A stretch of DNA of 64,000 bases. Source: Pseudomonas graminis. Lineage in GTDB: Bacteria > Pseudomonadota > Gammaproteobacteria > Pseudomonadales > Pseudomonadaceae. A model generated the notes under the pieces. That model was not told the DNA's origin. It was given only the letters and a program-made list of their open reading frames with translations, and ran no database searches. The position numbers were made by a program, and so were the translations under genes. The stretch spans positions 2,259,001 through 2,323,000 of the forward strand of contig NZ_CP053746.1 in assembly GCF_013201545.1 (NCBI RefSeq), read 5' to 3'. Shown one piece after another: positions 658 through 51,942 of the stretch (position 1 is the stretch's first letter; the number at the start of each line of letters is the position of its first letter).

Positions 658-693
658 TGCACCATTCGTTGAAGCGGGCGCGATTTTGGTGCT
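658..693 (+). promoter_or_regulatory. Candidate NtrC binding region for the transglutaminase operon
   Basis: A perfect NtrC half-site TGCACCA lies at 658-664. A fuller site at 678-692 reads GCGCGA-TTT-TGGTGC, matching 10 of 12 fixed positions of GCACCA-N3-TGGTGC. Both sit about 55-90 bases upstream of the -24 element at 746, a usual distance for NtrC enhancers. Found by eye, so this is inference. Confidence 0.45.
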
Positions 694-745
694 GTGCTTG
701 GCTGAACATGCTACCTCCAGGCCGGAGGCGCCTGATTTGCCGGGG

Positions 746-761
746 TGGCATAAGTCTTGCG
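746..761 (+). promoter_or_regulatory. Candidate sigma-54 (RpoN) promoter of the transglutaminase operon
   Basis: TGGCATA-N4-TTGC at 746-760 has the -24 GG and -12 GC doublets of RpoN promoters at the correct spacing (consensus TGGCACG-N4-TTGCW). The base after TTGC is G rather than A or T. Transcription would start near 772, about 27 bases before the GTG start at 799. Confidence 0.55.
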
Positions 762-798
762 CAGCTCCGTTACCGTCCAGGCTCGCAGGAGGCACGCC

Positions 799-4092
<3,294 letters not shown>

Positions 4093-4099
4093 CCGCGCC

Positions 4100-4126
4100 G
4101 GCGACCTGACGTGAGATCAGGTCGCC
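4100..4126 (+). other. Intercistronic stem-loop in the transglutaminase operon
   Basis: A perfect 10-bp inverted repeat (4100-4109 and 4117-4126) with a 7-base loop and no T-run, between the stop at 4092 and the next start at 4231. It looks like an mRNA-stabilising or attenuating hairpin rather than a full terminator. Confidence 0.6.
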
Positions 4127-4230
4127 GTGCCGCACGTATAAAACGTGGAAAGCGGCGCCTGCGTGTCATGTTGTCTGCGCTAGTCTAAGCGCAGTTGATT
4201 CGAGTCCCTTTGTTGTCTGCCGAGCCTTCC

Positions 4231-6732
4231 ATGCCTGACCTGCTTGACCACTATCCGCTCACCCCGGGTACCTACCACGAGATGCTGGATGCCAGCGGCG
4301 CCGTTCGGCCCCATTGGCAGCGTTTGTACGAGCATCTCCAGCGCAGCACACCTGCGCAGCTGATCCAGCGTCAGGCGCTGCTCGCCCGGCAGATTCAGGA
4401 AAACGGCGTCACTTACAACGTCTACGCCGACCCCAAGGGTGCCGATCGGCCCTGGGAACTGGACATGCTGCCCCACGTGATTCCAACGGAAGAATGGCAG
4501 CCATTGGCGGCCGGCATCGCCCAGCGCGCGCGTCTGCTCAATGCCGTGCTGGCCGATCTCTACGGCCCGCAGGAACTGATCGCCGAAGGTCTGCTGCCGG
4601 CGGAGCTGGTGTTCGGTCACAACAATTTTCTCTGGCCATGCCAGGGCGTAAAGCCGCCTGAAGGCACTTTTCTGCATGTGTACGCGGTTGACCTGGCGCG
4701 CACGCCCGATGGCCGCTGGTGGGTCACCGCCGACCGGACTCAGGCGCCGTCGGGTGCCGGTTATGCGCTGGAAAGCCGTCTGATTGTGTCGCGGGCATTC
4801 CCCGAGCTGTACCGGGATCTGCAGGTCCAGCACCTCTCGAATTTCTTTCGGTCGCTGCAGGAAACCCTCGCGCGTCAGGCACCGACCAGCCACGAAGCCC
4901 CGTTGGTGGTGTTGCTGACGCCCGGGCGTTTCAACGAGAGCTATTTCGAGCATCTTTATCTGGCCGGTCAGTTGGGCTATCCGCTGGTGGAAGGCAGCGA
5001 CCTCACAGTGCGTGACGCCACGGTGTACCTGAAAACCCTCAGCGGGTTGCGTCGTGTTCACGCGATCATGCGCCGTCTGGACGACGATTTTTGCGATCCG
5101 CTGGAATTGCGCACCGATTCGGCGCTGGGCGTGCCGGGCCTGCTGCAAGCGGTGCGACAGGGCCGCGTGCTGGTTGCCAATGCCCTGGGCAGCGGCGTGC
5201 TGGAATCACCGGGGCTGCTGGGGTTTCTCCCGAAGATCAACGAACACCTGTTTGGTGAAGAGCTGCTGCTGCCGTCGATCGCCACGTGGTGGTGTGGCGA
5301 GCCGCCGGTGCTGGCCCAAGCCCTGGAGAAGATGCCGGAGCTGCTGATCAAGCCTGCGTTCCCGTCCCAGAGTTTCGCCCCGGTATTCGGCCGTGACCTC
5401 AGCGACGAAGAGCGCAAGGCCCTGGCCGCGCGCATGCAGGCCCGGCCCTATGCCTACGTCGCGCAGGAACTGGCGCAGTTGTCCCACGCGCCGGTCTGGC
5501 ACGGCGAGGACCGTCAGCTGCAGCCCCGCGCCATCGGTATGCGCGTGTACGCAGTGGCGACGGCCGATGGCTACCGCGTCCTGCCGGGCGGATTGACCCG
5601 TGTGGCCGCCGACGCCGACGCCGACGTGGTGTCGATGCAACGGGGCGGCGCAAGTAAAGACACCTGGATTCTCGGTGAACGCCCACTGGGCAGCGAACCG
5701 TGGAAAAACCGCCACTCGCTGGGGGTGCACGACCTGATTCGGCGCGACCCGTATCTGCCGTCGCGTGTGGTGGAAAACCTGTTCTGGTTCGGCCGCTACT
5801 GCGAGCGCTGCGACAACAGCGCGCGCCTGCTGCGGATCATGCTCACGCGCTATGTCGACGGCGATGACCCCGTCGCCCTGCAAGCAGCGGTCGAGCTGGC
5901 CGAGCGACTTAATCTTCTGCCGCTCCAGGACGAAGAGGAGCCGCGCGAGCTACATGAACGTTTGCTTGAAGCTTTGCTGGGTGACGACTGGCCGTTCAGC
6001 CTGCGCTCCAACTTGCAGCGCTTGCAATGGGCGGCGTCCCAGGTGCGCGGCAAGTTGTCCCGCGAGAACTGGCAGGCGCTGGTGGAATTGCAGCACGAAG
6101 CCATGAATCTAGAAACCGAGAGCCCTGATTTCGGCGAGCTGCTGGACTTTCTCAACCGCCTGGTGATGTCACTGGCGGCGCTGTCCGGTTTCGCTCTGGA
6201 CGACATGACCCGCGACGAGGGCTGGCGCTTCCTGATGATCGGGCGGCGCATCGAGCGCTTGCAGTTTTTGTGTACGACGCTGGCGGCCTTTCTGCGCAGC
6301 GAGGCAGTGTTTCATCAGGACGCTCTGGACGGGCTGCTCGAACTGGGCAACAGCGGCATCACTTACCGCTCTCGTTATCTGGCCGTACCGCAGCTGATCC
6401 CGGTGCTCGATTTACTGGTGCTGGACGATCAGAACCCCCACGCAGTGTTGTTCCAGCTCAAGCTGGTGGCCCGCTCGGTGAAACGCATGAACGAGGATTT
6501 CGGTGTGCCTCAGGACAACAGCCTCGCGACGCTGATTCAGCGGCTCTCGGTCTTCGATCTGGGTTGCCTGGAAGAAGGGCTGTTTGGTGAGAGCAGCGTC
6601 AAGGCAGCGCTGGACGGCTTGGCGGATCTGCTGCAGACCATCGGTGAAACCAGCGGCCATGTTTCTGACCGGCTTGCGCTGCGTCATTTTGCCCACGTCG
6701 ACGATGTCAGTCAGCGCACGGTGTCTGTCTGA
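4231..6732 (+). CDS. Circularly permuted ATP-grasp / alpha-E domain fusion protein
   Basis: An 833-residue protein. Residues 1 to about 480 match the circularly permuted ATP-grasp family (formerly DUF404/DUF407; motifs DLYGPQELIAEGLLP, GLKP-like WPCQGVKPP, LLTPGRFNESYFEH, SGVLESPGL). From about residue 500 to the end is the alpha-E helical domain (formerly DUF403; LPSRVVENLFWFGRYCERC). In many bacteria these are two adjacent genes, so here they are fused. The family is predicted to form peptide bonds using ATP. The ATG at 4231 is chosen over an in-frame TTG at 4195 because family members begin near PDLLDHYPL. The stop overlaps the next ATG by one base, suggesting translational coupling. Confidence 0.88.
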   Translation: MPDLLDHYPLTPGTYHEMLDASGAVRPHWQRLYEHLQRSTPAQLIQRQALLARQIQENGVTYNVYADPKGADRPWELDMLPHVIPTEEWQPLAAGIAQRARLLNAVLADLYGPQELIAEGLLPAELVFGHNNFLWPCQGVKPPEGTFLHVYAVDLARTPDGRWWVTADRTQAPSGAGYALESRLIVSRAFPELYRDLQVQHLSNFFRSLQETLARQAPTSHEAPLVVLLTPGRFNESYFEHLYLAGQLGYPLVEGSDLTVRDATVYLKTLSGLRRVHAIMRRLDDDFCDPLELRTDSALGVPGLLQAVRQGRVLVANALGSGVLESPGLLGFLPKINEHLFGEELLLPSIATWWCGEPPVLAQALEKMPELLIKPAFPSQSFAPVFGRDLSDEERKALAARMQARPYAYVAQELAQLSHAPVWHGEDRQLQPRAIGMRVYAVATADGYRVLPGGLTRVAADADADVVSMQRGGASKDTWILGERPLGSEPWKNRHSLGVHDLIRRDPYLPSRVVENLFWFGRYCERCDNSARLLRIMLTRYVDGDDPVALQAAVELAERLNLLPLQDEEEPRELHERLLEALLGDDWPFSLRSNLQRLQWAASQVRGKLSRENWQALVELQHEAMNLETESPDFGELLDFLNRLVMSLAALSGFALDDMTRDEGWRFLMIGRRIERLQFLCTTLAAFLRSEAVFHQDALDGLLELGNSGITYRSRYLAVPQLIPVLDLLVLDDQNPHAVLFQLKLVARSVKRMNEDFGVPQDNSLATLIQRLSVFDLGCLEEGLFGESSVKAALDGLADLLQTIGETSGHVSDRLALRHFAHVDDVSQRTVSV

Positions 6733-7628
6733 TGAACAGTGCCCATTATCAGATCCTCCACGACACGCACTACAAGTACGACAGCCCGGTTTCCCTGGCC
6801 CAGCAGCTTGCGCATCTATGGCCGCGGCGCAGTCCCTGGCAGCGTTGCCTGGAGCAGCACCTGATCATCAGCCCGACGCCCACCACGCGTCGCGATGAGC
6901 TGGACGTGTTTGGCAATCCGCTGACGCGCCTGGCATTCGAGCGCCCGCACGATGAGCTGCAGGTCAACGCGCGCCTGCATATTGAAGTGTTGGAACGGCC
7001 GCGGCTGGATTTCAATGTTTCCACTTCGTGGGATGAGGCGCAGCACCGGCTGACCTACAGCGCGTCGAGAATGGCGCCGGACATCCTTGAGGCCTGTCGC
7101 TATCGCTTTGAATCCCCGTACGTTCACCTGAAGCAGACGTTCGTCGAGTTTTCCGCCAGCTGCTTTCCTGCCGGGCGGCCGATGCTGCTATGCGCGCAGG
7201 CGCTGATGGAGAAGATATTCGAAGAGTTCACCTTTGATGGCGAGGCGACTCAAGTGGCCACGCCGCTGGTGGAAGTGCTGGAAACCCGCCGTGGCGTCTG
7301 TCAGGACTTCGCTCATCTGATGCTGGCGTGCGTACGCTCGCGCGGTCTGGCGGCGCGGTATGTCAGCGGCTATCTGCTCACCCAGCCGCCGCCAGGGCAG
7401 CCGCGGCTGATTGGCGCCGATGCCTCACACGCATGGGTGTCGGTGTTCTGTCCGGTGCTGGGTTGGGTGGATTTCGATCCGACCAACAACGTTCAGCCTG
7501 CGCTTGAGCACATCAGTCTGGCGTGGGGGAGGGATTTTTCGGACGTGTCGCCGTTGCGGGGGGTGATTCTGGGAGGCGGGAGCCACGACCCGGAAGTGCG
7601 CGTGACGGTGATGCCGATTGCGAGGTAG
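6732..7628 (+). CDS. Transglutaminase family protein
   Basis: A 298-residue protein with the bacterial transglutaminase N-terminal region (YQILHDTHYKYDSPVSLAQQ) and core. The catalytic triad is visible as C190 (RRGVCQDFAH), H233 (DASHAW) and D247 (WVDFDPTNN). There is no signal peptide, so it is probably cytoplasmic like its partners. It is the third gene of the operon, starting on the last base of the preceding stop. The conserved association of two transglutaminases with the ATP-grasp/alpha-E protein points to a system that joins and trims a peptide or amide product; the product is unknown. Confidence 0.88.
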   Translation: MNSAHYQILHDTHYKYDSPVSLAQQLAHLWPRRSPWQRCLEQHLIISPTPTTRRDELDVFGNPLTRLAFERPHDELQVNARLHIEVLERPRLDFNVSTSWDEAQHRLTYSASRMAPDILEACRYRFESPYVHLKQTFVEFSASCFPAGRPMLLCAQALMEKIFEEFTFDGEATQVATPLVEVLETRRGVCQDFAHLMLACVRSRGLAARYVSGYLLTQPPPGQPRLIGADASHAWVSVFCPVLGWVDFDPTNNVQPALEHISLAWGRDFSDVSPLRGVILGGGSHDPEVRVTVMPIAR

Positions 7629-16484: not shown

Positions 16485-16771
16485 GAAGAATTCTCTCTCC
16501 AAAACAACGCTTTCTCCCACATCCACTACCCTCAAATGGTGCGGCCCGTAGCGGAACCGCACCGACGGTGTGCAGTTCGGTGACGCAGGCTGTAACAACA
16601 GGGTTGTACAGGTGCGGATGGAGCAGTTGCGCGCCTGCGTCGCCAGGGTTGCTCTTTTAAAGTCGTGAGGTTGCACCTTGCGCGGTTTAGACGGTTGCAC
16701 GCCCTGTAAAAAAGGGCAGAAATCAGTCGGATAGCAACAAAACGACGAGTTTCTCAAGAATAAAAAACCGA
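16485..16771. other. Gene-free leader region before braC
   Basis: About 290 bases without a credible gene. A short stem GCCCT-N7-AGGGC lies at about 16699-16715. Scattered TGGTGC, GCACC and TGCACC half-sites resemble NtrC halves, but none pairs at the right spacing. The stretch ends in the sigma-54 promoter listed separately. Confidence 0.5.
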
Positions 16772-16787
16772 TGGCACGCCACTTGCT
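16772..16787 (+). promoter_or_regulatory. Sigma-54 promoter of braC
   Basis: TGGCACG-CCAC-TTGCT is an exact match to the RpoN consensus TGGCACG-N4-TTGCW. Transcription would begin near 16798, about 43 bases before the ATG. Confidence 0.8.
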
Positions 16788-27398: not shown

Positions 27399-27414
27399 AG
27401 CAAGTGGCTTGCCA
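27399..27414 (-). promoter_or_regulatory. Candidate sigma-54 promoter of ureEFG-ureJ
   Basis: On the minus strand this reads TGGCAAG-CCAC-TTGCT, matching the RpoN consensus at all key positions (-24 GG, -12 GC, W after TTGC). Transcription would start near 27387, about 25 bases before the ureE ATG. Confidence 0.72.
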
Positions 27415-27507
27415 ACAGGCGCGCAGGACAGAAATTGCCAGAATACGGTGCAGTCAGGGGAGGGCTGATCACGAAGGTGCGACCTATCGGTGCGACGGTT
27501 GGGGCGA

Positions 27508-27523
27508 TGCACCGCCGTGGTGC
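27508..27523. promoter_or_regulatory. Candidate NtrC binding site upstream of ureE
   Basis: TGCACC-GCCGT-GGTGC is a perfect TGCACC-N5-GGTGC dyad, about 95 bases upstream of the -24 element. Direct GGTGCGAC repeats lie beside it (about 27476-27496). It sits just beyond the 3' end of desT. Confidence 0.65.
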
Positions 27524-46032: not shown

Positions 46033-46731
46033 TTAAATGGTGACCAGACCCCGAACGCCTTCGGCCTCCATGTTTTCGCCGCGGCCCTGCTGGACGATCT
46101 CGCCGCGGGACATGACGATGTACTGATCCGCCAGCTCGGCGGCAAAGTCGTAGAACTGCTCGACCAGCAGGATCGCCATGTCACCGCGGGCGGCGAGCTT
46201 TTTGATCACCGCGCCGATTTCCTTAATCACCGAGGGCTGAATGCCTTCAGTGGGCTCGTCGAGAATCAGCAGTCGAGGGCGACTGGCCAGAGCGCGACCG
46301 ATCGCCAGTTGCTGTTGCTGGCCGCCGGACAAGTCACCGCCACGCCGATGCTTCATCTGCAGCAACACCGGGAACAGCTCGTAAATGAACGGCGGGACTT
46401 CCTTGGCCTCCGCGCCCGGGAACCGCGACAGGCCCATCAGCAGGTTTTCTTCAACGGTCAGTCGGCCAAAAATCTCCCGGCCCTGGGGCACGTAGGCGAT
46501 CCCGGAATGCACGCGCTGGTGGGGCTTGAAGCCGGTGATCGGCTTGGCGTCCCACTGCACCACGCCTTCTTTGGCCGGTAGCAGCCCCATCAGCACTTTC
46601 AACAGCGTGGTCTTGCCCACGCCGTTACGACCGAGCAGGCAGGTGACCTCGCCGATCTTCACGTCAAACGACAGACCTCGGAGGATGTGGCTGCCGCCGT
46701 AGAACTGATGCAGCTGAGTGACGGTTAACAA
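46033..46731 (-). CDS. urtE: Urea ABC transporter ATPase UrtE
   Basis: A 232-residue ABC ATPase. It shows Walker A GRNGVGKTTL, signature LSGGQQQQLAIGRAL, Walker B LLILDEPTEGIQPSVIKEIG (the EGIQPS form is typical of UrtE) and VEQFYDFAAELAD. I assign a TTG start at 46731, giving MLTVTQLHQFYGGSHILRGL, because GAGGAAAT lies 5-6 bases upstream and the family starts exactly here. The long upstream in-frame extension runs through a repeat element and is rejected. Confidence 0.95.
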   Translation of the reverse strand: MLTVTQLHQFYGGSHILRGLSFDVKIGEVTCLLGRNGVGKTTLLKVLMGLLPAKEGVVQWDAKPITGFKPHQRVHSGIAYVPQGREIFGRLTVEENLLMGLSRFPGAEAKEVPPFIYELFPVLLQMKHRRGGDLSGGQQQQLAIGRALASRPRLLILDEPTEGIQPSVIKEIGAVIKKLAARGDMAILLVEQFYDFAAELADQYIVMSRGEIVQQGRGENMEAEGVRGLVTI

Positions 46732-46751
46732 TTTGATTTCCTCGGATTCAT

Positions 46752-46878
46752 CAGCTGCAAGCTGCAAGAAAAAGCGTTCGTTCCTCACAAGCTGTAAGCC
46801 CCAAGCTTCAAGCTGCAAGAAAAAGCCGATCGGAGTGCGCGCTTCTAGCTTGTCGCTTGCCGCTAAAAGCTTGCCGCT
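46752..46878. repeat. AAGCTGCAAG-family repeat between urtD and urtE
   Basis: Repeated AGCTGCAAGCTGCAAGAAAA and CAAGCTTCAAGCTGCAAGAA units (46752-46822), and inverse CTTGTCGCTTGCCGCTAAAA with GCTTGCC up to 46876. It separates two genes that are normally tightly linked. Same family as 43044-43144. Confidence 0.8.
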
Positions 46879-46885
46879 GGGCGGT

Positions 46886-47740
46886 TCACCGCCCCAGATA
46901 CACCTCAATCACCCGTTCATCCGCCTGCACGTCTTCCAGTGACCCCTCCGCCAGCACGCTGCCCTGGTGCAGGACGGTGACGTGGTCGGCGATGGTGCCG
47001 ACGAAGCCCATGTCGTGCTCGACCACCATCAGCGAGTGCTTGCCGGCCAGGCGCTTGAACAGCTCGGCGGTGAATTCGGTTTCGGCGTCGGTCATGCCGG
47101 CGACGGGCTCGTCGAGCAGCAGCAGTTGCGGGTCCTGGACCAGCAACATGCCGATCTCCAGAAACTGCTTCTGACCGTGGGACAACAGCCCGGCGGGGCG
47201 CGACATCGATGAAGTCAGGCGAATGGTTTCCAGCACCTCGTCGATGCGGTCGCGCTGTTCGCCGTTGAGCTTCGCCCGCAGGCTGGCCCATACCGACTTG
47301 TCGGTCTTCTGCGCCAGCTCCAGGTTCTCGAACACGCTCAGGGCTTCGAACACCGTGGGCTTTTGAAACTTGCGGCCGATCCCGGCCTGAGCGATCTGCA
47401 CTTCGCTCATCTTGGTCAGGTCGAGGGTTTCGCCGAACCAGGCCTTGCCGTGACTGGGGCGGGTCTTGCCGGTGATCACGTCCATCAGCGTGGTCTTGCC
47501 CGCGCCATTGGGGCCGATGATGCAACGCAGCTCGCCGACACGGATGTACAGATTCAGATCGTTGAGGGCCTTGAAGCCATCGAAACTGACGCTGATGTCT
47601 TCCAGCGTGAGGATCGTGCCGTGCAGCGTGTTCAGCCCTTTGCCAGCCACCTGACCGAGACCGATGGCGTCGCGGCTGGTGCCGGCATCGCTGTTCGGGT
47701 CGAGCACTGGATCGAATGCGGGCGTCGGAGTGCTTTTCAT
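46886..47740 (-). CDS. urtD: Urea ABC transporter ATPase UrtD
   Basis: A 284-residue ABC ATPase. It shows Walker A GPNGAGKTTLMDVITGKTRP, signature LSHGQKQFLEIGMLL, Walker B LLLLDEPVAGMTDAETEFTA and VVEHDMGFVGTIADHV, all typical of UrtD. The first 35 residues are a variable N-terminal tail before LNTLHGTILTLEDISVSFDG. Its start overlaps the urtC stop by 4 bases. Confidence 0.96.
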   Translation of the reverse strand: MKSTPTPAFDPVLDPNSDAGTSRDAIGLGQVAGKGLNTLHGTILTLEDISVSFDGFKALNDLNLYIRVGELRCIIGPNGAGKTTLMDVITGKTRPSHGKAWFGETLDLTKMSEVQIAQAGIGRKFQKPTVFEALSVFENLELAQKTDKSVWASLRAKLNGEQRDRIDEVLETIRLTSSMSRPAGLLSHGQKQFLEIGMLLVQDPQLLLLDEPVAGMTDAETEFTAELFKRLAGKHSLMVVEHDMGFVGTIADHVTVLHQGSVLAEGSLEDVQADERVIEVYLGR

Positions 47741-48816
47741 TGGTCGCCCCTTTTCTTGATCAGGCCGATCACGCCTTTGGGCAGGTACAGCGTCACTACG
47801 ATGAACAGCGCGCCGAGGAAGAACAGCCAGTATTCAGGGAAGGCCACGGTGAACCAGCTCTTCATGCCATTGACCACACCGGCGCCGAGCAGCGGGCCGA
47901 TCAGCGTGCCGCGACCGCCCAGGGCGACCCAGACGGCCGCTTCAATGGAGTTGGTCGGCGACATTTCGCTGGGGTTGATGATGCCGACCTGCGGCACGTA
48001 CAACGCCCCGGCCAAGCCGCACAACACCGCGCTCAACACCCACACGAACAGCTTGAAGCCGCGCGGGTCGTAGCCGCAGAACATCAGGCGGTTTTCGGCG
48101 TCACGCACGGCGGTCAACACGCGCCCGAACTTGCTGCGCGCCAGACGCCAGCCGACGAACAGGCTGCCCGCGAGCAACGCTACCGTGAGCAGAAACAACA
48201 CCGCGCGGGTGCCCTGGGAGGTGATGCTGAAACCCAGAATGCTGCGAAAGTTGGTGAAACCGTTATTGCCGCCAAAGCCGGTTTCGTTGCGGAAGAACAG
48301 CAGCATCCCGGCGAAGGTCAGGGCTTGGGTCATGATCGAGAAATACACGCCCTTGATCCGCGAACGGAAGGCGAAGAAGCCGAACACCAGCGCCAGCAAC
48401 CCCGGCGCCAGTACCACCAGGCACATGGCCCAGAGGAAATGCTGCGTGCCAACCCAGTACCACGGCAGTTCGGTCCACGACAGGAACGTCATGAACGCCG
48501 GCAGGCTATCGCCCGACGCCTCACGCATCAGGTACATGCCCATCGCGTAGCCGCCCAGGGCGAAGAACAGCCCGTGGCCCAGGGACAGCAGACCGGCGTA
48601 ACCCCAGACCAGATCCAGTGCCAGCGCAACGATCGCGTAGCAGAGGATTTTGCCTACCAGGGTCAGCGTGTAAGCCGAGACTTGCAGACTGTTGCTTTCA
48701 GGCAGCAGGGAGAGCAACGGCAAAGCGATCAGCAGGGCGAGAATCACCACGCCGACCGCGACCGTAACTTGGGTGCCGGCGCGTTGCGCGGCAGTGACCA
48801 TCAGTGGCTGATTCAT
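47737..48816 (-). CDS. urtC: Urea ABC transporter permease UrtC
   Basis: A 359-residue inner-membrane permease (BPD_transp_2, LivM-like). Family stretches include DLVWGYAGLLSLGHGLFFAL, FGGNNGFTNF and VLTAVRDAENRLMFCGYDPR. It has about nine hydrophobic segments. The ATG shares its A with the last base of the urtB stop (TGATG). Confidence 0.96.
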   Translation of the reverse strand: MNQPLMVTAAQRAGTQVTVAVGVVILALLIALPLLSLLPESNSLQVSAYTLTLVGKILCYAIVALALDLVWGYAGLLSLGHGLFFALGGYAMGMYLMREASGDSLPAFMTFLSWTELPWYWVGTQHFLWAMCLVVLAPGLLALVFGFFAFRSRIKGVYFSIMTQALTFAGMLLFFRNETGFGGNNGFTNFRSILGFSITSQGTRAVLFLLTVALLAGSLFVGWRLARSKFGRVLTAVRDAENRLMFCGYDPRGFKLFVWVLSAVLCGLAGALYVPQVGIINPSEMSPTNSIEAAVWVALGGRGTLIGPLLGAGVVNGMKSWFTVAFPEYWLFFLGALFIVVTLYLPKGVIGLIKKRGDQ

Positions 48817-50402
48817 CAGTCGATCACCCGTCCTTTGAGTGCGAAGAGGCCTTGCGGACGTTTCTGAATAAACAGAATGATCAGCGCCAGGATCAGGATC
48901 TTGCCCAGTACGGCGCCGATCTGCGGTTCGAGAATCTTGTTGGCGATGCCCAGCCCGAAGGCCGCCGTGACGCTGCCGGCCAGTTGACCGACGCCGCCGA
49001 GTACGACCACCAGGAAGGAGTCGATGATGTAGCTCTGGCCCAGGTCAGGACCGACGTTACCGATCTGGCTCAGCGCCACGCCACCCAGCCCGGCGATGCC
49101 GGAGCCGAGCCCGAAGGCCATCATGTCGATGCGCCCGGTGGGCACGCCGCAGCAGGCGGCCATGTTGCGGTTCTGGGTCACGGCGCGCACGTTCAGGCCC
49201 AGGCGGGTTTTGTTCAGCAGCAGCCAGGTCAGCACAACGACGAACAGCGCGAAGGCGATGATGACGATGCGGTTCCAGGGCAGCACGAGATTGGGCAGCA
49301 CTTGAATGCCGCCCGACAGCCATTCCGGGTTCGCCACTTCGACGTTCTGCGCGCCGAACACGACGCGAATCAGTTGAATCAGCATCAGGCTGATGCCCCA
49401 CGTCGCCAGCAGGGTTTCCAGCGGGCGACCGTACAAGTGGCGTATGACCGTGCGTTCCAGTGCCATACCGATGCAGGCGGTGACGAAAAACGCGATGGGC
49501 AGCGCCACCAGCGGATAAAACTCAAGGGCCCCGGGGGCGTAACGCTGAAACATCATCTGCACGACGTAGGTGGCGTAGGCGCCAAGCATCAGCATCTCGC
49601 CGTGGGCCATGTTGATCACGCCGAGCAGGCCGAAGGTGATCGCCAGTCCCAGCGCCGCCAGCAGCAGAATCGACCCGAGCGACAGGCCGGCAAAGGCTTG
49701 CCCGAGGATCTCGCCGAACATCAATTTGCGTTTGACCTGAGCCAGACTCGTCTCCGCCGCCAGACGCACGCTGGGGTCAGTTTCGACGTTGGGTTCGAGC
49801 AGGGTTTCGAGACGGGTGCGGGCCAGTGGATCGCCGGTTTCACCGAGCAGGCGCACGGCGGCGAGGCGCACGGTGGGGCTGACGTCGACTAACTGCAGGT
49901 TGGCCAGTGCCAGGTTCAGCGCAGAGTGAACGCTGTCGTCCTGCTCGCTCGCCACTTGTTGCACCAGCAAGGGCAACTGCGCCGGGCGGGCGCTTTTTTG
50001 CAGGATTTGCGCGGCGGCCAGGCGAACCTTGGGGTCGGCAGCGAGCAGCTGATGGCTTGCGAGCGCGGTGTTGATCAGGCCGCGCAGACGGTTGTTCAGG
50101 CTGATGGCTTGGGGTGTATCTGGGTTGGGCGCATCGGCCAGCGCGGGGGCGTCAGGGTCGACGGCGATGAAACTGTCGCCGTTCTGGATGAACGGCCGGT
50201 TGCTGCTGTCGGCAGCGACGCGGCCATCCTGCAGGGCAACCAGTAATTCAACGCGCGCCGGATCAGGCCTGGCGGCCCAGCTTTCCAGCAGTTGGGCGCG
50301 CGCGGAGGAGTCGGCCGCGACAAAGTCGCCGGCATCGCTGGCGTGGGCGGCGAAAGGCAGCCAAAGGCACAGCGCGAGAAGAAGGTGGAAATATCTGGGC
50401 AT
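48816..50402 (-). CDS. urtB: Urea ABC transporter permease UrtB
   Basis: A 528-residue protein. A signal-like hydrophobic N-terminus (YFHLLLALCLWLPFAAHASD) is followed by a periplasmic region of about 200 residues with HEAT-like repeats (VRLAAAQILQKSARPAQLPL, VSPTVRLAAVRLLGETGDPL). A LivH-like permease then begins near LGQAFAGLSLGSILLLAALG, with GVINMAHGEMLMLGAYATYV. This two-part build is characteristic of UrtB. ATG 50402 has AGGA 8 bases upstream; an ATG 18 bases further up would add MLPGLD. Confidence 0.95.
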   Translation of the reverse strand: MPRYFHLLLALCLWLPFAAHASDAGDFVAADSSARAQLLESWAARPDPARVELLVALQDGRVAADSSNRPFIQNGDSFIAVDPDAPALADAPNPDTPQAISLNNRLRGLINTALASHQLLAADPKVRLAAAQILQKSARPAQLPLLVQQVASEQDDSVHSALNLALANLQLVDVSPTVRLAAVRLLGETGDPLARTRLETLLEPNVETDPSVRLAAETSLAQVKRKLMFGEILGQAFAGLSLGSILLLAALGLAITFGLLGVINMAHGEMLMLGAYATYVVQMMFQRYAPGALEFYPLVALPIAFFVTACIGMALERTVIRHLYGRPLETLLATWGISLMLIQLIRVVFGAQNVEVANPEWLSGGIQVLPNLVLPWNRIVIIAFALFVVVLTWLLLNKTRLGLNVRAVTQNRNMAACCGVPTGRIDMMAFGLGSGIAGLGGVALSQIGNVGPDLGQSYIIDSFLVVVLGGVGQLAGSVTAAFGLGIANKILEPQIGAVLGKILILALIILFIQKRPQGLFALKGRVID

Positions 50403-50447
50403 ATCGAGTCCTGGAAGCACCCGCGCGACGTAACGTCAGACGGGGAA

Positions 50448-50540
50448 CCTGTAGGAGTGAGCTTGCTCGCGATCGCGGTATACCAGCCGACATCATCGTC
50501 ACAGGCAGATCGCAATCGCGAGCGAGCTCACTCCTACAGG
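50448..50540. repeat. REP doublet between urtA and urtB
   Basis: CCTGTAGGAGTGAGCTTGCT at 50448 and the inverse AGCGAGCTCACTCCTACAGG ending at 50540. The arms match over about 28 bases. It lies 48 bases past the urtA stop. Confidence 0.9.
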
Positions 50541-50587
50541 GATAGGTTCAGCCGGAACATTTCAGCCGACCGTTTACCCTGTGCCGC

Positions 50588-51853
50588 TTAGTTGCTCTTC
50601 ACCGCATAGTCAGGCTTTTTGTCGTTGCCCGGAATGAACGGACTCCAAGGCTGGGCACGAATCGGCTCTTTGGTCTGCCAGACCACGTTGAACTGACCGT
50701 CGGCCTTGATTTCGCCGATCATCACCGGCTTGTGCAGGTGGTGGTTGGTCTTGTCCATGGTCAGGGTGAAGCCCGACGGCGCGGCGAAGGTCTGGCCGGC
50801 CATGGCGTCGCGGACTTTATCCACATCGGTGGACTTGGCTTTCTCGACCGCTTGAGCCCACATGTGGATACCCACGTACGTGGCTTCCATCGGGTCGTTG
50901 GTCACGGCCTTGTCGGCGTTCGGCAGGTTGTGCGCCTTGGCGTAGGCCTTCCAGTCGGCGACGAACTTGGTGTTGACTGGGTTCTTCACCGATTCGAAGT
51001 AGTTCCACGCCGCCAGGTTGCCTACCAGCGGTTTGGTGTCGACGCCGCGCAGTTCTTCTTCGCCGACCGAGAACGCCACCACCGGTACGTCGGTGGCTTT
51101 CAGGCCCTGATTGCCCAGCTCTTTGTAGAACGGCACGTTGGAGTCGCCGTTGACCGTGGAGATCACCGCCGTCTTGCCGCCCGCCGCGAACTTCTTGATG
51201 TTCGACACGATGGTCTGGTAATCGCTGTGACCGAACGGGGTGTAGACCTCTTCGATGTCCTTGTCCGCGACACCTTTGGAGTGCAGGAACGAGCGCAGAA
51301 TCTTGTTGGTGGTGCGTGGGTAGACGTAGTCGGTCCCCAGCAGGAAGAAGCGTTTGGCCGCGCCGCCGTCTTCGCTCATCAGGTATTCAACCGCAGGAAT
51401 GGCCTGCTGGTTAGGCGCGGCGCCGGTGTAGAACACGTTCGGTGACATCTCTTCGCCTTCGTACTGCACCGGGTAGAACAGCAGGCCGTTCAGCTCTTCA
51501 AAGACCGGCAACACCGACTTGCGCGACACCGAGGTCCAGCAGCCGAACACCACGGCGACCTTGTCCTGAGTCAGCAACTGACGCCCTTTCTCCGCAAACA
51601 ACGGCCAGTTCGACGCCGGGTCGACCACCACCGGCTCAAGCATCTTGCCGTTGACGCCGCCCTTGGCGTTGATCTCATCAATGGTCATCAGCGCCATGTC
51701 CTTGAGCGAGGTCTCGGAGATGGCCATGGTGCCGGACAAAGAATGCAGAATGCCGACCTTGATGGTCTCGGCCGCCTGAGCGGTCCAGGTCAAACCCATC
51801 GCTGCGATCGATGCAGACAAAGTGAACGCTTTCAGCAAACTACGACGCTTCAT
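50588..51853 (-). CDS. urtA: Urea ABC transporter substrate-binding protein UrtA
   Basis: A 421-residue periplasmic binding protein. The N-terminus (MKRRSLLKAFTLSASIAAMG to TWTAQAAE) looks like a signal peptide with an RR pair, about 28 residues. The mature part starts TIKVGILHSLSGTMAISETS, and VVFGCWTSVSRKSVLPVFEE and GSDYVYPRTTNKI-like GTDYVYPRTTNKIL are UrtA signatures that separate it from BraC. It is the first gene of the run, behind a candidate RpoN promoter. Confidence 0.97.
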   Translation of the reverse strand: MKRRSLLKAFTLSASIAAMGLTWTAQAAETIKVGILHSLSGTMAISETSLKDMALMTIDEINAKGGVNGKMLEPVVVDPASNWPLFAEKGRQLLTQDKVAVVFGCWTSVSRKSVLPVFEELNGLLFYPVQYEGEEMSPNVFYTGAAPNQQAIPAVEYLMSEDGGAAKRFFLLGTDYVYPRTTNKILRSFLHSKGVADKDIEEVYTPFGHSDYQTIVSNIKKFAAGGKTAVISTVNGDSNVPFYKELGNQGLKATDVPVVAFSVGEEELRGVDTKPLVGNLAAWNYFESVKNPVNTKFVADWKAYAKAHNLPNADKAVTNDPMEATYVGIHMWAQAVEKAKSTDVDKVRDAMAGQTFAAPSGFTLTMDKTNHHLHKPVMIGEIKADGQFNVVWQTKEPIRAQPWSPFIPGNDKKPDYAVKSN

Positions 51854-51925: not shown

Positions 51926-51942
51926 AGCAAACGCTGGGCCAA
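51926..51942 (-). promoter_or_regulatory. Candidate sigma-54 promoter of urtA
   Basis: On the minus strand this reads TGGCCCA-GCGT-TTGCT, with the -24 GG, -12 GC and spacing of RpoN promoters. One departure is C for A in TGGCA. Transcription would start near 51914, about 60 bases before the urtA ATG. Confidence 0.6.

Follow-up and report, generated by a model that had tools for sequence, protein, structure and literature searches.

A conserved sigma-54-type promoter element ahead of the transglutaminase/ATP-grasp/Alpha-E operon of Pseudomonas and its probable place in the nitrogen-limitation regulon

Nitrogen-regulated relatives and the operon of Pseudomonas graminis

Transglutaminase-like, ATP-grasp and Alpha-E proteins are said to have been predicted by Iyer in 2009 to act as one system, as citing papers relate, and the literature passages searched give no established product for it. 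An operon of this kind lies at 799-7628 of the stretch of DNA analyzed here (the window: 64,000 nucleotides (nt) of Pseudomonas graminis, contig NZ_CP053746.1, positions 2,259,001 to 2,323,000 of the forward strand), downstream of a putative sigma-54 (RpoN) promoter element at 746-760. An earlier note on this DNA had placed the operon under RpoN-NtrC control and proposed that it builds or remodels a store in the form of a nitrogen-rich peptide or amide. Published sources are taken here to the extent of the passages available. In Burkholderia cenocepacia H111, the genes I35_5080-83 (BCAM1233-1236) are listed among the targets shared by sigma-54 and NtrC. In nitrogen-limited cells of an ntrC mutant, their expression changes by log2 -8.2, -9.4, -9.4 and -6.0, respectively; many of the co-regulated genes serve scavenging (PMC5491218). 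Like the window operon, this cluster encodes DUF404/407 (circularly permuted ATP-grasp, CP-ATP-grasp), DUF403 (Alpha-E), a transglutaminase-like protein and a large transglutaminase-like protein. Unlike the window operon, it consists of four separate genes in another numbered order, with ATP-grasp and Alpha-E unfused, and the orthology is one of domain names rather than of compared sequences.

A second relative is the Anbu operon of P. putida, PP_2685-2688, whose expression rises under nitrogen limitation (PMC7801951, PMC3325844) and is higher on nitrate than on ammonium (PMC8050072). In the nitrogen-limited wild type, PP_2686-2688 are up 11- to 15-fold, with PP_2685 (Anbu) changed only 1.12-fold (PMC7801951). 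Another data set has Anbu up 11.1-fold in nitrogen-limited P. putida. An increase of Anbu under this condition was reportedly described by Hervas in 2008, according to a citing paper. This operon resembles that of the window in combining a CP-ATP-grasp protein with a transglutaminase and, if the control proposed below holds, in its induction by nitrogen limitation; it differs in being a paralogous cassette that includes Anbu and in having its nitrogen regulation already in print, and the passages available make no mention of DUF2126 in it. In marine metagenomes, these domains are associated with urea-metabolism domains (PMC3597751). Within the literature passages searched, the Pseudomonas DUF2126 operon itself is not the subject of any paper. 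As the B. cenocepacia and P. putida relatives are published as nitrogen-controlled, the kind of regulation described below is already known, and the addition made here is its genus-wide conservation at the Pseudomonas operon.

The window operon comprises three genes on the forward strand. Gene 1 (799-4092) encodes a protein of 1097 amino acids (aa) in which a transglutaminase-like domain is fused to DUF2126, a putative amidoligase that is perhaps glutamine-synthetase-like; the protein is 97% identical to that of a P. graminis locus, and among named relatives those from P. graminis and P. lutea are the nearest. Gene 2 (4231-6732) encodes a type 2 CP-ATP-grasp domain fused to Alpha-E, and gene 3 (6732-7628), which overlaps the gene 2 stop, encodes a second transglutaminase-like protein of 298 aa. 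Pfam matches in the three genes (PF08379, PF01841, PF09899, PF14403, PF04168) confirm that the three families share one operon, as the earlier note had it. The open frame of gene 2 was listed from TTG 4195, the conserved methionine is its residue 13, and ATG 4231 is the most likely start.

A -24/-12 element conserved with the operon and retained without gene 1

The sequence TGGCATAAGTCTTGC at 746-760 (forward strand), recognized from the sequence and its conservation, has the form TGGC-N7-TTGC with the exact GG-N10-GC spacing of a sigma-54 (-24/-12) element. It matches 10 of 13 consensus positions and ends 38 nt upstream of GTG 799, so that the claimed element is present and plausibly spaced from the start codon. 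Taken from this single sequence, the case for it is weak. Mononucleotide shuffles give p 0.05 for the best upstream sigma-54 score, and a scan of the whole window with TGGCACGNNNNTTGCW, allowing 2 mismatches, gave 14 sites against 17.5 expected, no excess over chance; the site at 746-760 has 3 mismatches to TGGCACGNNNNTTGCW and hence falls outside those 14.

It is the conservation across orthologues that indicates that the element is more than chance. Eighty loci were fetched by protein similarity, and one (22 nt upstream) was dropped from scoring, leaving 55 Pseudomonas-group loci, including one titled 'gamma proteobacterium L18', and 24 others; these loci are mutually related, and their counts are not independent events. 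A sigma-54 score of at least 10/13 at -40 to -75 is found in 55/55 Pseudomonas-group loci (random windows, 1.4%) and in 15/24 other loci (random windows, 1.1%). When the window is aligned with the 55 Pseudomonas-group loci, the element is conspicuous between diverged flanks. Among 20 representatives (window included, pairwise below 75% identity over the aligned region), TGGCATAAGTCTTGC heads the conservation ranking of the 15-mers upstream of the ribosome-binding site, with 97% identity against a median of 53%. The earlier note had held that its claim would fall if the element were not conserved upstream of orthologues, and conservation is what was found. A chance match of a short motif is thereby ruled out, for which the single-sequence tests alone are insufficient. 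The spacer at 750-756 is also conserved across Pseudomonas, well beyond the known needs of sigma-54 recognition.

The element and the operon are associated throughout the genus. The exact 15-mer TGGCATAAGTCTTGC occurs in 198 of 298 Pseudomonas genomes and DUF2126 in 220; both are present in 196, DUF2126 only in 24, the 15-mer only in 2, and neither in 76. The 15-mer is thus found in 196/220 genomes with DUF2126 versus 2/78 without (Fisher p 1e-46, uncorrected for phylogeny). Where coordinates were compared by eye (the window and 12 more of the 196 genomes with both), the 15-mer precedes the DUF2126 match by 878-880 nt. Among the 24 genomes with DUF2126 only, 16 carry in the same position a TGG-type variant that differs at 1-3 letters, one carries an AGG variant, one (G087) has a decayed DUF2126 gene, and 6 are divergent loci (55-59% protein identity) with a common GGCATGAANNCTGC element at about -94 to -97. 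At five divergent loci (L105-L109), an exact GGCATGAATTCTGC lies at about -96 before the DUF2126 gene, with a variant at L104; it was found in 0/7900 random 300-mers.

Genomes without gene 1 are informative in this respect. G156 and G285 have the 15-mer and no DUF2126, and in both the promoter stands directly before the ATP-grasp/Alpha-E gene, which in G285 is followed by the second transglutaminase gene. The Alpha-E and proteasome families were scanned in 60 of the 298 genomes; the fused ATP-grasp/Alpha-E gene is present in each of the 48 with DUF2126, and four others (G001, G007, G009 and G015) have the fused gene and no DUF2126. In 5 of these 6 genomes with gene 2 and no DUF2126, a non-exhaustive set, a sigma-54 element is found directly upstream of gene 2: the exact 15-mer in the case of G285, and elements scoring 10-12 of 13 in G001, G009, G015 and G156. 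A 10/10 NtrC dyad is present in G009 as well. As the element is kept where gene 1 is missing, the promoter appears to travel with the operon and gene 1 to be dispensable. This suggests a core consisting of the ATP-grasp/Alpha-E protein and the small transglutaminase, the latter from G285, the sole case followed to its end.

The start of gene 1 is likely GTG 799, preceded by a Shine-Dalgarno sequence, AGGAGG, at 787-792 (forward strand), which was read from the sequence and the alignment. TTG 757, the start in the list of open frames, was rejected because it falls within the -12 element and because GTG 799 is conserved together with its ribosome-binding site. If C760 is taken as -12 by the usual convention, transcription is predicted to start at about 772 on the forward strand, which would give a leader of about 27 nt. 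A strict consensus scan found no sigma-70 promoter in the leader.

NtrC-like sites and the case for nitrogen control

Upstream of the -24/-12 element, the dyad GCGCGATTTTGGTGC (halves GCGCG and GGTGC around ATTTT) occupies 678-692 on the forward strand, centred at about -87, and matches GCACC-N5-GGTGC at 8/10 positions. Dyads that score 8/10 or more and have one half perfect occur in 45/55 Pseudomonas-group and 13/24 other loci, against a background of about 7% (6.9% for the Pseudomonas group), and those of at least 9/10 in 17/55 and 8/24, respectively (background about 1.3-1.6%). Perfect dyads are present in 0/55 Pseudomonas-group loci and in 4/24 others (Dechloromonas L059, Azonexus L062, a betaproteobacterial metagenome-assembled genome, L065, and Propionivibrio L075), all four of which also have sigma-54 elements. 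The gap from dyad to TGGC in the 45 loci is 43-44 in 33, 52-54 in 8, 41-42 in 3 and 83 in 1, so that the two main classes, to the second of which the window (53) belongs, differ by about one helical turn. Of the two NtrC-like sites that the earlier note had pointed to, the dyad at 678-692 is imperfect and conserved; the half-site TGCACCA at 658-664 (forward strand) is present and is not conserved in Pseudomonas (37% identity in the 20 representatives). A further conserved block, GTGC, lies at 648-652, and everted GGTGC...GCACC half-sites with other spacings occur upstream of some orthologues (L105-L107).

The operon is, therefore, read here as a probable member of the sigma-54/NtrC nitrogen-limitation regulon, with a probability of roughly 0.8. 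Judged by conservation and by analogy with the published B. cenocepacia data, the RpoN part of this reading appears well supported and the NtrC part reasonably supported, and to this extent the claim of RpoN-NtrC control stands. Under low ammonium or glutamine, phosphorylated NtrC would bind the dyad, whose centre is near 685 (about -87), and would drive open-complex formation by RNA polymerase-sigma-54 at 746-760. The promoter at this site may serve the whole operon, and one transcript from about 772 would then encode all three proteins.

Several observations weigh against this reading. The window dyad has p 0.175 in shuffles; not significant in the window alone, it rests on conservation, and 7/55 Pseudomonas-group loci have no dyad of at least 8 in the expected zone. 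A pattern of half-site plus -24/-12 element occurs at 35 places in the own genome versus 12 for a reversed control, and such a pattern is too loose to stand alone when taken from one genome. In 9/24 other loci, no sigma-54 element is found near gene 1. Three of these have elements further upstream. In two of the three, from Rhodocyclaceae (L070 and L079), a paralogous ATP-grasp cassette immediately precedes the DUF2126 gene and shares its strand, and the ATP-grasp gene of this cassette has a sigma-54 element of 11/13 and an NtrC dyad of 9-10/10 ahead of it; similar elements are found further upstream at the third, L069, where the upstream gene was judged by eye only. The remaining 6 have no element at the expected place. 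G007 has gene 2 and no sigma-54 element scoring at least 10. Moreover, a P. putida rpoN mutant still induces PP_2686-2688 by 14- to 20-fold, and urtA is up 11-fold in the same mutant (PMC7801951). Because urtA also rose, this result may concern that particular mutant or condition; it stands nonetheless.

Two other explanations of the upstream region deserve consideration. The promoter could be a true sigma-54 promoter that in Pseudomonas responds to an enhancer-binding protein other than NtrC, consistent with the imperfect dyad in the window, the drift of its left half between species groups and the conserved block at 648-652. Such an activator seems improbable, given that the right half GGTGC is kept at a near-constant distance from TGGC in the 45 loci, that distant orthologues have perfect NtrC dyads, and that NtrC dependence in B. 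cenocepacia is strong (PMC5491218). The notion that the operon is constitutive, and the block ahead of it a chance match or conserved for reasons other than promoter function, draws on the weak single-sequence statistics and on spacer conservation in excess of the known requirements of sigma-54 binding. It can be given hardly any credence in view of elements of at least 10/13 in all 55 Pseudomonas-group loci, their persistence in genomes without gene 1, and the B. cenocepacia expression data (PMC5491218).

Possible functions, paralogous cassette and neighbouring sites

In the gene 1 protein, C180, H229 and D245 are invariant in 28/28 sequences, and we take them to be the Cys-His-Asp triad of transglutaminases. 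No solved relative of this protein was found by sequence. Fold comparison hints that DUF2126 may be glutamine-synthetase-like, at 6-12% identity and middling Z to glutamine synthetase-fold ligases; Foldseek matches of the protein to a family of bacterial exotoxins (probability at most 0.06) were disregarded. For the gene 2 ATP-grasp domain, Foldseek returned human glutathione synthetase (E 7.5e-9), E. coli glutathionylspermidine synthetase/amidase (E 5e-6) and 3n6x, annotated as a putative glutathionylspermidine synthase, at 32% identity. With 3n6x apart, identity to these enzymes is 10-15%, and it is the ATP-grasp fold that they have in common with gene 2. Glutathionylspermidine synthetase/amidase pairs a ligase with a cysteine amidase, an arrangement like that of the operon, whose cysteine enzymes differ in being transglutaminase-like. 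The P. aeruginosa RloABC/RimBK systems similarly combine ATP-grasp with a protease, and RloABC has an inactive transglutaminase-like protein. They are unlike the operon in that RloC is RimK-like (24% identity in that paper) and RloB is a membrane protein, and the passages available mention no nitrogen control of them.

A tentative reading, held at somewhat less than even odds, is that the enzymes form and cleave amide bonds in a small conjugate or peptide during nitrogen scavenging or turnover, with gene 1 optional and genes 2 and 3 forming the core. A paralogous operon encoding CP-ATP-grasp, Alpha-E and transglutaminase is present in the same genome (C1:3557080-3560309). It shares these domains and similar sites with the window operon, having an NtrC-like dyad of 9/10 and a sigma-54 element of 11/13 (elements at 2463-2477 and 2529-2545 of the locus C1:3554500-3563000); it differs in being unfused and in lacking DUF2126. 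No Anbu-like open frame was found beside this cassette. It is possible, though doubtful, that the two paralogous cassettes, the second with or without Anbu, make up one conserved nitrogen-starvation module of Pseudomonas and Betaproteobacteria, an amide ligase/cysteine amidase cycle for which the glutamine-synthetase-fold DUF2126 would be an optional specificity module. Such a cycle would use ATP to couple amines or peptides that have been scavenged to a carboxylate or glutamyl group, so that their nitrogen could be released.

Two rival functions have been put forward. The one in print for Anbu-linked cassettes is protein tagging and turnover in starvation, in which ligases tag proteins and transglutaminase-like enzymes or the Anbu protease process them. 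The 11.1-fold rise of Anbu in one P. putida data set favors it, as opposed to the 1.12-fold change of PP_2685 in another (PMC7801951), and Anbu from Y. bercovieri is described as having in vitro neither peptidase activity nor a specific complex with its operon partners. Moreover, the three genes at 799-7628 include no Anbu gene, and the genome's only match to the proteasome family PF00227 is one 191-aa open frame elsewhere, taken as HslV; a second PF00227 match is found in 4 of the 60 genomes scanned, and Pfam may miss Anbu. An Anbu partnership was accordingly rejected for the window operon, and tagging appears rather unlikely. The nitrogen-rich peptide or amide store of the earlier note would suit the presence of predicted ligases (ATP-grasp, possibly glutamine-synthetase-like) together in one operon. 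NtrC, however, activates genes under nitrogen scarcity, when stores such as cyanophycin are usually not made, and the control proposed here points to scarcity, leaving the store reading unsupported. Cyanophycin synthetase has an ATP-grasp domain fused to a Mur-ligase-like domain, and no Pfam match to a Mur ligase was found in any of the three operon proteins. Along with the scavenging genes co-regulated in B. cenocepacia (PMC5491218), this makes a store very unlikely; amide salvage or conjugation is the likelier function, and an unproven one.

The genus-wide conserved promoter indicates the growth condition in which the product of the system should be sought. The genomes that keep it without gene 1 direct attention to ATP-grasp/Alpha-E and, from G285, to the small transglutaminase as the core, and the finding cautions that the system should not be taken for a nitrogen store.

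Upstream of the operon, the end of ygiQ is followed by a terminator-like perfect 12-bp inverted repeat with a TTCG loop at 583-610 (no strand assigned), read from the sequence, which parts ygiQ from the operon, and then by a 188-nt stretch before the three genes. A terminator scan did not list this hairpin, which fails the scan's T-run rule. Elsewhere in the window, which was annotated in part only, the earlier note's RpoN-type promoters for urea and amino-acid uptake genes are borne out by two sigma-54 elements of 12/13. One, at 51926-51942 on the reverse strand, precedes urtA of urtABCDE (46033-51853, reverse strand), where NtrC-like dyads reach only 8/10 and lie further upstream (52009, 52050). 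The other, at 16771-16787 on the forward strand, stands before an ATP-binding cassette (ABC) transporter of the branched-chain amino-acid type, with a 9/10 NtrC-like dyad at 16559, about 200 nt upstream of the element. A further 12/13 element, at 27399-27415 on the reverse strand, precedes the urease accessory genes ureE/ureF, and a perfect 10/10 NtrC dyad is found upstream of these genes at 27509-27523.

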